From Candidatus Methanophagales archaeon (GTDB lineage: Archaea > Halobacteriota > Syntropharchaeia > Alkanophagales > Methanospirareceae), in contig JAPDIG010000004.1 of the NCBI GenBank assembly GCA_025966525.1, forward strand, positions 1 to 49,482: a stretch of DNA of 49,482 nucleotides. Direction: 5' to 3'. The position numbers were made by a program, and so were the translations under genes. How positions within the stretch are numbered: position 1 is the stretch's first letter; each line of letters opens with the position of its first letter. This document shows positions 39,388 to 43,138 of the stretch, in pieces. The notes beneath the pieces were generated by a model. The model was not told the DNA's origin and made no database searches. It worked only from the letters and a program-made list of their open reading frames with translations.

Positions 39388-40938
39388 TCAGCTTCCAAAG
39401 TCCATCACCTTCGCCTTCATATCGGAAAGCTCTACAAGCGTTGCACACCCCGGAACAGGGGTTATATCCCTCTTTTTCTGATATGGTGTTTGTGATTGCC
39501 ACGCTCCGGAATTTATAAGTAATACATTCCGATATTTAGAAATACCAACGGTATGAGTATGCCCGCAATGGAATATGTCAGGAACGGGGTCAATTACTCC
39601 ATAATCGTGCCCGTCAGGAACAATAGAGACCATATTCCCGTATATTGGGGCAATATGTCGCCTTCTAAGCATCTCAACCATCGTTTCATCGGGATTTGAG
39701 TAATTCAGCCGCGATACCGAGTTAACAAAATCATCGTATGATTGCCCATGATATATCAAGACAAGCTTGCCTCCAATCTTTATGTATGCGGGATTGCTCA
39801 CAAAGTACGTATTATTAGGGAAGAGCTTCCTGAGGTTCTCTGGTAAGGGAGGTTGTGGCTCTGCACTTCGAACGGCATCATGATTTCCAGGTGCTACCAC
39901 CACGTGTATATGAGAGGGGAAATCGTGAAAATATCCTGCCGCTGTTTTATATTGCTCTTCTATATCCATAATTGACAAATCGTCCTCCTGACCCGGATAT
40001 ACACCTATTCCATCCACGATATCGCCAGCAACAATTAGATACGCAATTCCCATGCTTTTGGCTTCGTCTTTCAACCACTGCACGAAACTACCCCACGATT
40101 CTTCCAAAAATGTGTTGCTTCCAACATGCATATCAGAGATGAATACCGCATATACGGGTCTTTGCTCCTCATGCCCTTCTTTTTTCTCGTCAGAACTATA
40201 TCCATAATTGGTATCGGAGTTGTGATTGGAATTGGATTTGAATGAAAAAGGTAAAGGTGATTGAGAAGTTGAAGATGGGAAAGGCACATCAGGGTGTACT
40301 ACCCTATTTGCAAACAAAAAACCCCCGTCAGATAAAGAACCGGTAACGCCTATTACCTCATCAGGTATTATTTCCTCTTGACGTGGCAAGATAATCACGA
40401 AATTCCCCGTAGGGTCTTCCAATTCCACGCGGAGATTCCCTTTTGCCGTTTTGTTTATCGAAGAAACCATTCCCACCACCGATACCTCTTCGCTTCTCCT
40501 TCCATTTTTAATAAATCTTATCTGTCCGCAGTTCATCCTCCGTTTTATTATCCCGCTTATCCGTTCATATCTATCGAGGAAATGCGGTAAAAAATCTTTG
40601 CGGTTCACACCACTTCGGCTATCCACGAACGATTTAATTATAGCTGGTTCAGGTACGGATGCTTGCGGTTGTTTTTGGAAGCCGTTGTTTTCTCCCTTTT
40701 TTTCTCCATTTTCCGCCCGGCTATTTTTGAGAAATTCGGCTATATGCCCGGTAGAAATCACAAAAATCGAGGGGTCTAACGAATTAGTCATGCTTTTCAC
40801 TATTTCGTTTACATCGAGGTGACTTTCGGCTTCAGATTGATTCAATAGTTCAATCGCTTCTGGCTGGACTTGAAATCCCAAATCGGCAAACCTCTTTACT
40901 ATTTCTATCCCATTCTTTTTGCCATTTCTCACAGCCAT
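39388..40938 (-). CDS. polB: DNA polymerase II (PolD) small subunit DP1
   Basis: VFISDMHVGSNTFLEESWGSFVQWLKD, LIVAGDIVDGIGVYPGQE, VVAPGNHDAVR, FHCGHTHTVGISKYRNVLLINSGAWQSQT. Confidence 0.95.
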   Translation of the reverse strand: MAVRNGKKNGIEIVKRFADLGFQVQPEAIELLNQSEAESHLDVNEIVKSMTNSLDPSIFVISTGHIAEFLKNSRAENGEKKGENNGFQKQPQASVPEPAIIKSFVDSRSGVNRKDFLPHFLDRYERISGIIKRRMNCGQIRFIKNGRRSEEVSVVGMVSSINKTAKGNLRVELEDPTGNFVIILPRQEEIIPDEVIGVTGSLSDGGFLFANRVVHPDVPFPSSTSQSPLPFSFKSNSNHNSDTNYGYSSDEKKEGHEEQRPVYAVFISDMHVGSNTFLEESWGSFVQWLKDEAKSMGIAYLIVAGDIVDGIGVYPGQEDDLSIMDIEEQYKTAAGYFHDFPSHIHVVVAPGNHDAVRSAEPQPPLPENLRKLFPNNTYFVSNPAYIKIGGKLVLIYHGQSYDDFVNSVSRLNYSNPDETMVEMLRRRHIAPIYGNMVSIVPDGHDYGVIDPVPDIFHCGHTHTVGISKYRNVLLINSGAWQSQTPYQKKRDITPVPGCATLVELSDMKAKVMDFGS

Positions 40939-41390
40939 TCCTTTACCTTCGCTTCTAAATATTGCTTTGGCAGCGCTCCTTGTATGACGTCCACAGGCTC
41001 ACCATTTTTAAAGATGAACAAGGTGGGTATAGCCATTATCGCAAATTCAGTAGCTACTCGCGGGTTCTCATCCACATTAAGTTTTCCAAATACGACTTTA
41101 CCGGCATATTCTTTTGACAATTCCTCTATTACCGGCGCAACCATTCTGCAAGGAGCACACCAGGGAGCCCAACAATCCACAACGACCAGTGGATATTTCC
41201 TTACAGTTTCTACAAAGCTATCGTCATCTATCGTCAGAGGATGGTCTATTATCCCCTCTTCTTTCTTTCTACCTTCTTTCATTGCTTTTATCTCCGCTTC
41301 CATCTCTCGCATCTTTCGCTCCTTTATTCTCTCTATCTCCATCTCCTCTTCCGTATAATTTATACGATTTTTTCCTCTTTCTTCTCTCAT
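40929..41390 (-). CDS. Thioredoxin with charged N-terminal extension
   Basis: VVVDCWAPWCAPCRMVAPVIEELSKEYAGKVVFGKLNVDENP. Confidence 0.93.
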   Translation of the reverse strand: MREERGKNRINYTEEEMEIERIKERKMREMEAEIKAMKEGRKKEEGIIDHPLTIDDDSFVETVRKYPLVVVDCWAPWCAPCRMVAPVIEELSKEYAGKVVFGKLNVDENPRVATEFAIMAIPTLFIFKNGEPVDVIQGALPKQYLEAKVKEWL

Positions 41391-41472: not shown

Positions 41473-41628
41473 TGTGCCGTATTGTGGTTGCCTCTAAACG
41501 GTCATTGCCATCTTTCGAAGGAGGCGTACCGCAGGGACCGTGCAATACGGCGAGGTTTGTAGCCCTTCGTTTGCCATAGTGATCATCCTTCGCTTTTCCG
41601 CGAGGTCACACTACTCTTCGAAAAGGGC
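41473..41628 (-). ncRNA. Candidate two-hairpin H/ACA-like guide sRNA
   Basis: Two hairpins closed by perfect stems (GCCCTT/AAGGGC; GCCGTATTG/CAATACGGC), each followed by ACA on the minus strand; the 5' hairpin has a pocket, K-turn-like UGA/AUGA element and 16-nt spacing to ACA. Confidence 0.6.
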
Positions 41629-41659
41629 ATTTTTATATCTATTCTTCTTATACTTAAAT

Positions 41660-43138
41660 CTAAAGATAATTCGATTTGGTGCTATGAAGGGGCACAGAAA
41701 AAGCTTTTTCCACTGATGGTCGATGGATAGCATTGTAAGAGCAGAAAGGAATTATTCGATGGTCAGGCGTGGCATAATGGATGCCGCATCTCTTAACCCT
41801 TTCCAGATCGAAATTATAGGCGTCCTGGAAGTGCATTGCACCGATAAAAAGCGCTTTGCGATGAAACTCCGCAAGAGCTTCTCGATTGCCTATTCCCAGT
41901 ATACTCGATAGTGAAGTCACAGAATCAATACCCTTTGGCGCCTTGTCCTTATCTATAAACCTCCTTAACGCAGATGCCAGTCCTGCTATTGCTCTTATTT
42001 TACCAATCCGCGATTTGCTTATCTCTTCTGCAGTATCCAGCAGGAACTCCATAAACCCTTCAACATCTATAAATTCGGTTATTGGTGTGAACCTCCCGTT
42101 TTCTACAAATACATACGTTGCGGCGCCGCAATGTGGGTGTACCGTGAATTCCAACTGTGGCACTTTCTTCCACGCTTCTACAAAATAAGAGACCGGCAGA
42201 ACAAAAGGTACGGGATAAAAGCTCTCTTTGGGTATTTCTCCGTCCGTTTGCTCTTCCAGAAGGTTTATGAAATCAGGAATTGTTATTCTTCCCTTTTTTC
42301 TCTCTGATTCATCTACTCTTCCTTCAAAAGCGATGGGTTGCGCATTCACACCCTTTACAATATCCAGGTTCTCGGCGGCAAATCGCACGATGTCCCCCAT
42401 CTGGTCGTCATTCACACCGCGCATAAGCGTGGGCACAAGCACTACACTTTTTAATCCGCCCCTCCTACAACTCTCTATTGCTTTTAACTTTGTTTTTAAC
42501 GCTGGTATCCCTCTTAATTTCTTATATGGCTCTTCAGTCACACCATCGAACTGCAAATAAACTGTATGCAAACCCGCTTCTTTTAGACGACTACAAAACG
42601 CTTCGCTCTTTGCCAGCGCTATTCCATTCGTTGCCACTTGAATATGCGAAAAACCAAGCTCACGTGCCATTTTTACTATATCTTCAAATCCCGCTCTTAT
42701 TGTCGGTTCACCACCCGCAAACTGTACCGCGGGGCAAGGGGGCATTTCACTCCTCAGTAGTTCCATCATTTCCCTCAACTGTTCCATCGTTGGCTCATAG
42801 ACGTAGCCTGTGACAGCAGCATTTGCAAAACACGTGGGGCATCTCTGATTGCACCTGTTCGTGAGGTCAATAAGTGCAAGTGCGGTAGAACTCTTATGCT
42901 CCGGGCAGAGACCACAATCAAAAGGGCAGCCCGTATCAGTTTTTGTGAGCGTGATCCCCGCCTTGCCCTCGTAGCGCCATTTTGAGAATTTGTTATATAA
43001 TGCAGCATCCGACCAGTATACGTCATCAAACTCACCATGCTTCTCACATTTCTTCTTTATCAGTATCCTGCCCTCGGATTCGTACACCTCCGCGTCTATA
43101 ACTTCGAGACATTCCGGACATAATGATTTCGTTTTCAT
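41660..43138 (-). CDS. Radical SAM protein of the Tes (tetraether synthase) / MJ0619 family
   Basis: N-terminal CPECLEVIDAEVYE..CEKHGEFDDVYW, TDTGCPFDCGLCPEHKSSTALALIDLTNRCNQRCPTCFANA, FAGGEPTIR. Confidence 0.85.
   Translation of the reverse strand: MKTKSLCPECLEVIDAEVYESEGRILIKKKCEKHGEFDDVYWSDAALYNKFSKWRYEGKAGITLTKTDTGCPFDCGLCPEHKSSTALALIDLTNRCNQRCPTCFANAAVTGYVYEPTMEQLREMMELLRSEMPPCPAVQFAGGEPTIRAGFEDIVKMARELGFSHIQVATNGIALAKSEAFCSRLKEAGLHTVYLQFDGVTEEPYKKLRGIPALKTKLKAIESCRRGGLKSVVLVPTLMRGVNDDQMGDIVRFAAENLDIVKGVNAQPIAFEGRVDESERKKGRITIPDFINLLEEQTDGEIPKESFYPVPFVLPVSYFVEAWKKVPQLEFTVHPHCGAATYVFVENGRFTPITEFIDVEGFMEFLLDTAEEISKSRIGKIRAIAGLASALRRFIDKDKAPKGIDSVTSLSSILGIGNREALAEFHRKALFIGAMHFQDAYNFDLERVKRCGIHYATPDHRIIPFCSYNAIHRPSVEKAFSVPLHSTKSNYL

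Follow-up and report, generated by a model that had tools for sequence, protein, structure and literature searches.

In an ANME-1 (Methanophagales) archaeon, the interval that separates a Tes-like radical-SAM gene from a gene for thioredoxin carries, on the minus strand (41628-41473), a 156-nt two-hairpin H/ACA guide RNA. This RNA is a homologue of the HgcG/Pab40/Pf7 guides, matching their hairpins I and II, and almost certainly steers the conversion of two uridines in the catalytic centre of the ribosome into pseudouridine (Psi). The window, that is the whole 49,482-nt stretch of DNA analysed, is contig C4 of an archaeal MAG (1.49 Mb, 95% complete). The explanation that fits best, to which we give a probability of about 0.92, is that of an H/ACA guide that shares its ancestry with hairpins I and II of Pab40 and directs Psi formation at 23S rRNA position U2496 and most likely at U2586. 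The RNA is unannotated in the ANME-1 lineage, for which a search of the literature on H/ACA RNAs or pseudouridine guides returned no relevant paper; it is nonetheless of a kind already known and founds no new family. The first-pass annotation of this DNA had proposed a two-hairpin H/ACA-like guide at this place, and the geometry of the element, the presence of Cbf5 and Nop10, a 6+6 pairing with rRNA and the recurrence of the RNA in about 30 genomes bear this out; what is new relative to that annotation is the target, the family and the fold of hairpin II. Two modified nucleotides are thereby predicted in the peptidyl-transferase centre of a methane-oxidising lineage without pure cultures.

Both hairpins display the geometry of archaeal H/ACA RNAs, in which the ACA box lies 14-16 nt from the pocket-closing pair and a K-turn sits about 10 layers up (Table 1). 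In hairpin I, the lower stem, upper stem and K-turn recognised in the first-pass annotation all persist in an alignment of 29 distinct sequences: every cell of the lower stem pairs, with passages from UA through UG to CG at two pairs, 97% of the cells of the upper stem are paired, and the K-turn is made of U.U, G.A and A.G, 10 layers above the pocket. The functional pocket measures 6+6 nt and not the 9+9 nt described before. The distance to the ACA box had been put at 16 nt; it amounts to 14 nt when the closing layer A14.G54 is counted and to 15 nt otherwise, so that the figure falls and the archaeal 14-16 nt rule that had been invoked stands. A GA stem of 10 layers combined with 14 nt to the ACA box, as found here, corresponds to the values of productive archaeal H/ACA guides (PMC4652768). 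At one related locus (L028:1394-1614, genome G011), the apical loop of hairpin I is enlarged by some 65-75 nt of inserted GC-rich repeats, with units like GCGAACGACGAAC.

Table 1. Position of the guide RNA, its structural elements and its neighbours in the window, with the evidence for each.
Feature	Position	Strand	Evidence
Two-hairpin H/ACA guide RNA, homologous to hairpins I+II of HgcG/Pab40/Pf7 (Afu-4)	41473..41628	-	Fold, conservation, HgcG match, compensatory changes
Radical-SAM protein (Tes-like), N-terminal zinc ribbon	41660-43138	-	
TATA box TTTAAGTA (-30 to -23), consensus TTTAAATA in relatives	41651..41658	-	Position kept in relatives
Thioredoxin	40929-41390	-	
Hairpin I lower stem, 5' strand GCCCUUU	41622..41628	-	29/29 paired; UA-to-CG compensations at two pairs
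Hairpin I 5' guide UCGAAG, pairs with rRNA CUUCGA	41616..41621	-	Pocket/rRNA match
Hairpin I upper stem, 5' strand GUAGUG	41609..41614	-	Pairing in alignment
Hairpin I K-turn, UGA strand	41606..41608	-	G.A 28/29, A.G 29/29
Hairpin I K-turn, AUGAU strand	41582..41586	-	Same K-turn counts
Hairpin I upper stem, 3' strand CACUAU	41576..41581	-	Pairing in alignment
Hairpin I 3' guide GCAAAC, pairs with rRNA GUUUGC	41569..41574	-	Pocket/rRNA match
Hairpin I lower stem, 3' strand GAAGGGC	41562..41568	-	Same alignment as 5' strand
Hairpin I ACA box	41558..41560	-	Invariant in ANME-1 alignment
Hairpin II lower stem, 5' strand GCCGUAUUG	41543..41551	-	ANME-1 invariant save G-C/G-U at first pair; covaries in wider family
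Hairpin II 5' guide CACGGU, pairs with rRNA ACCGU; next C may pair with G2588	41537..41542	-	rRNA match
Hairpin II upper stem, 5' strand CCCUGCGG	41529..41536	-	Family-wide covariation
Hairpin II K-turn-like strand AAUGA, opposite UA at 41528-41527	41502..41506	-	GA and UA invariant; GA/GA in relative L154
Hairpin II upper stem, 3' strand CCGUUUAGAGG, UU and A bulged	41491..41501	-	Family-wide covariation
Hairpin II 3' guide CAACCA, AACC pairs with rRNA GGUU	41485..41490	-	rRNA match
Hairpin II lower stem, 3' strand CAAUACGGC	41476..41484	-	Family-wide covariation
Hairpin II ACA box	41473..41475	-	Invariant in ANME-1

Because the genome itself comes without an assembled 16S or 23S rRNA, targets were read from the rRNA of relatives, including one congeneric genome, the 23S sequences being taken from contigs that carry 16S. 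The two guide strands of hairpin I form six plus six Watson-Crick pairs with the 23S segment GUUUGC-UA-CUUCGA, whose target uridine we take to be E. coli position 2496. The site forecast in the first-pass annotation, UUUGCCA-UN-CUCUUCGAA, had the guide strands right and the innermost nucleotides of each side wrong. The full 6+6 match recurs in 10 of 15 ANME-1 genomes, and 10-11 pairs form in the other five; in two of these incomplete cases a single mismatch falls on the outermost pair, and in G021, G022 and G030 an uncompensated change at rRNA position 2492 reduces its side of the pairing to four contiguous pairs. Shuffling the pocket 2000 times never yielded a 6+6 site in 16S and 23S together. 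Two of the checks suggested at the outset, covariation in related genomes and complementarity of the pocket to rRNA (here that of relatives), both speak for the guide, with compensatory changes in the lower stem of hairpin I and, across the wider family, in both stems of hairpin II.

A sign that pocket and rRNA evolve together is found at 23S position 2499, where the rRNA nucleotide and the facing guide base occur in three matched states, namely U:A in ANME-1, A:U in G046 and C:G in G047. This joint change constitutes direct evolutionary evidence for the guide-target pair. The diverged hairpin I of G056 has no match to its own rRNA site and was left out of the support. All ANME-1 23S sequences read (L131-L150) have U at 2499, a position occupied by C, A or U in the other archaea compared; C2499U is reported to confer sparsomycin resistance in Halobacterium halobium (PMC4690841). 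Position 2588 of Pyrococcus abyssi would be the equivalent of E. coli 2496, because the spacings of the reported Psi residues (2585, 2588 and 2603) fit U2493, U2496 and U2511. Pab40 guides modification of P. abyssi U2588 in vitro, and Psi2592 of Thermococcus kodakarensis depends on cbf5, nop10 and gar1 (PMC6138745). Hairpin I is accordingly the counterpart of stem I in the Rfam family RF00064 (HgcG/Pab40), the trait of which is to guide the P. abyssi 2588 equivalent, and is predicted to direct Psi at U2496.

Hairpin II has a real 9-bp closing stem with the ACA box directly adjacent, as proposed earlier, 15 nt between the closing pair and the ACA box, and 10 layers. Above the pocket the picture differs from that first drawn. 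The suggested GCCUC/GAGGC upper stem breaks in relatives, its single pairs being kept in just 17-27 of 29; the suggested competitor, ACGGUC/GACCGU, is invariant in ANME-1, and its pairing is absent from most family members outside ANME-1 (missing in L151, L152 and L153). The stem conserved across the family is instead CCCUGCGG with CCGU(UU)AG(A)GG, above which sits a K-turn-like UA/GA element; the 5' side of this K-turn reads UA in place of GA in ANME-1, and relative L154 has the canonical GA/GA. A mini-hairpin in the 5' loop, present in the drawing of the Rfam model, was set aside on family comparison in favour of one continuous upper stem. Support for these stems comes from outside ANME-1, since hairpin II is nearly invariant within that lineage and gives no covariation signal there. 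Among 14 homologues, two of them from ANME-1, pairing reaches 92% of the cells in the lower stem and 88% in the upper stem, both-sided changes occur in 8 of 9 lower-stem and 8 of 8 upper-stem columns, and none of 2000 strand shuffles pairs as well; these counts come from a hand-curated alignment from which bulges were taken out by hand, and thus lean toward the model. The lower stem (GCCGUAUUG/CAAUACGGY; 41476-41484 and 41543-41551) is near-invariant across ANME-1 although any paired sequence should serve, and alternative pairings, CCGU...ACGG and ACGGUC...GACCGU, are available.

The guide segments AACC and ACGGU(C) of hairpin II fit a single site in 16S and 23S, UGGGUU-U2586-A-GACCGUC, by 4+5 to 4+6 pairs. 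As 56 of 3000 shuffled pockets also found some site, this target is moderately significant on its own. The Haloarcula ribosome carries Psi2621 (E. coli 2586), for which a Haloferax stem-II homologue has been proposed as the guide (PMC2584109), and U2586 is most likely the nucleotide that hairpin II directs. Hairpin I could also be the sole functional unit of the H/ACA RNA, with hairpin II a structural remnant or an element with a role other than at U2586, a reading that we hold to be unlikely. It would account for the unusual invariance and the atypical UA/GA K-turn of hairpin II in ANME-1, for the ability of its ACGGU to pair with the internal GACCGU, for an ANME-1-family genome in which hairpin I is intact and hairpin II lost or degenerate (L185, G034), and for the reported lack of Psi at the 2586 equivalent of P. 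abyssi (PMC2584109). Against it, the lower stem, the 10-layer GA stem and the ACA box are kept family-wide with covariation, and the pocket core GGU...AACC matches the invariant rRNA around 2586 in every 23S compared.

The assignment to the HgcG family rests on several searches. Under a permissive cmscan, RF00064 matches the whole element at 33.3 bits (E 8e-8); because this score stays below the gathering cut-off of 77 bits, we speak of a homologue rather than of a member of the Rfam family. RF00064 also detects the orthologous locus in several further ANME-1 genomes, and its matches in G046 and G055 exceed the cut-off. Conversely, a covariance model built from ANME-1 sequences only retrieves the latter two loci, L151 and L152, at E 5.6e-11 and 5.7e-8, adds further members in G047, G038 and G034, and gives a weaker match in G056. 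HgcG-type hairpins are also found in other archaeal families (L186, L154, L183, L187, L199, L206, L207, L203 and L210), and Rfam at its gathering threshold calls none of these nine loci; the curated threshold thus overlooks homologues in several other archaeal families. The traits of RF00064 stem II, namely the closing stem, the GGU...AACC pocket and the ACA box, are all present in the ANME-1 RNA.

In comparison with the characterised guides, described as three hairpins, I to III, in Pf7/Pab40 (PMC2584109), the ANME-1 RNA corresponds to the first two (Afu-4 in Archaeoglobus). HgcG/Pab40 of P. abyssi, Pf7 of P. furiosus and Tko1 of T. kodakarensis agree with it in the order of hairpins I and II, and the hairpin I target of HgcG/Pab40, P. 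abyssi Psi2588, is common to the ANME-1 RNA. Pab40.1 and ANME-1 hairpin I also share a lower stem one pair short and an unpaired U ahead of the ACA box (PMC4652768). The ANME-1 RNA differs from HgcG/Pab40 in the absence of hairpin III from its locus and in a hairpin I pocket fitted to rRNA U2499. Afu-4 of Archaeoglobus fulgidus, likened here by description only, is likewise a multi-hairpin H/ACA RNA, with a hairpin III related to that of Pab40, but it has this third hairpin and its first two have other reported targets (S1167 and L2601) (PMC4652768). HP1 of the Haloferax HP1/HP2 guide (Grosjean et al. 2008, PMC2584109) is a stem-II homologue and, like hairpin II, the proposed guide of Psi2621 (E. 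coli 2586); Haloferax has retained II and III and lost I, whereas ANME-1 retains I and II and has apparently lost III. In G036 and G037, hairpin III accompanies a hairpin II-like element and no hairpin I is recognisable.

Hairpin III, which is widely conserved and guides Psi formation in helix 69 of 23S rRNA, was sought beyond the locus. A search by pattern in 36 ANME-1-family genomes did not find it, and a dedicated model gave no credible match there (one match at E 0.195, in G020), strict filters having been applied to fragmented MAGs; pattern and model both find hairpin III in other classes. The helix 69 loop reads GUAACUCUGACC, with A1916C (E. coli numbering), in the three ANME-1 23S sequences read (L131, L136 and L147), and GUAACUAUGACC or GUAACUAUAACC, with A at 1916, in the other archaea with a readable loop. 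The helix 69 guide has plausibly been lost in ANME-1. That this loss together with A1916C, and a hairpin I guide sharpened to U2499, would amount to a lineage-specific rewiring of ribosomal core modification is a tentative idea, more doubtful than probable.

The guide RNA would be independently transcribed. The TATA-like box pointed out in the first-pass annotation lies upstream at a conserved spacing, a TTTAAATA-like box beginning at -30 (+/-1) in most of 32 ANME-1-family loci, and we infer that the RNA is transcribed from it; as in Pab40, the predicted start coincides with the first base of the motif. The genome encodes Cbf5 (441 bits) and Nop10 (80 bits). In the proposed mechanism, L7Ae would bind the K-turn of each hairpin and Cbf5-Nop10-Gar1 the lower stem and ACA box; each pocket would pair with 23S rRNA on either side of one uridine, which Cbf5 would turn into pseudouridine, at U2496 for hairpin I (Psi2588 in P. 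abyssi) and most likely at U2586 for hairpin II.

The location of the element between two genes of its own strand, in an order (radical-SAM/RNA/thioredoxin) retained at most ANME-1 loci with both sides assembled, could also suggest a cis-acting element, belonging either to the Tes-like gene as a structured 3' UTR or to the thioredoxin gene as its 5' leader. The close homologues of the Tes-like protein, among named genomes, come mostly from ANME-1/Methanophagales assemblies. Such a cis-acting role is very improbable: the element has a TATA box of its own at a fixed distance, its homologues outside ANME-1 adjoin neither a Tes-like nor a thioredoxin gene, its pocket matches rRNA, and its family is one of known trans-acting guides.

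The trans-acting guide is, as a whole, a well-conserved structure. It is single-copy in its own genome, and counterparts 80-97% identical to it occur in about 30 of the 36 ANME-1-family genomes, the sequence being kept in the aligned ANME-1 loci while the flanks diverge. The minus-strand RNA folds at -55.5 kcal/mol, compared with -41.9 +/- 3.7 for shuffled sequences, none of which (0/200) folds as low, and across 29 distinct sequences the 38-pair model has 96.9% of its cells paired versus at most 52.5% for slid versions. A chance fold with chance ACA boxes in an AT-rich intergenic region, which has nothing to recommend it beyond the general ease with which RNA folds, can be dismissed because it is contradicted by the z-score of -3.7, the conservation amid diverging flanks, the compensatory changes in the stems and the guide-target covariation. 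Two MAGs contain the RNA a second time on a different contig (G003:C262 and G015:C139); these extra copies may be strain variants or contamination. In the rRNA operon of G011 (L146), a group I intron match lies near the 16S rRNA and the 23S rRNA is interrupted.
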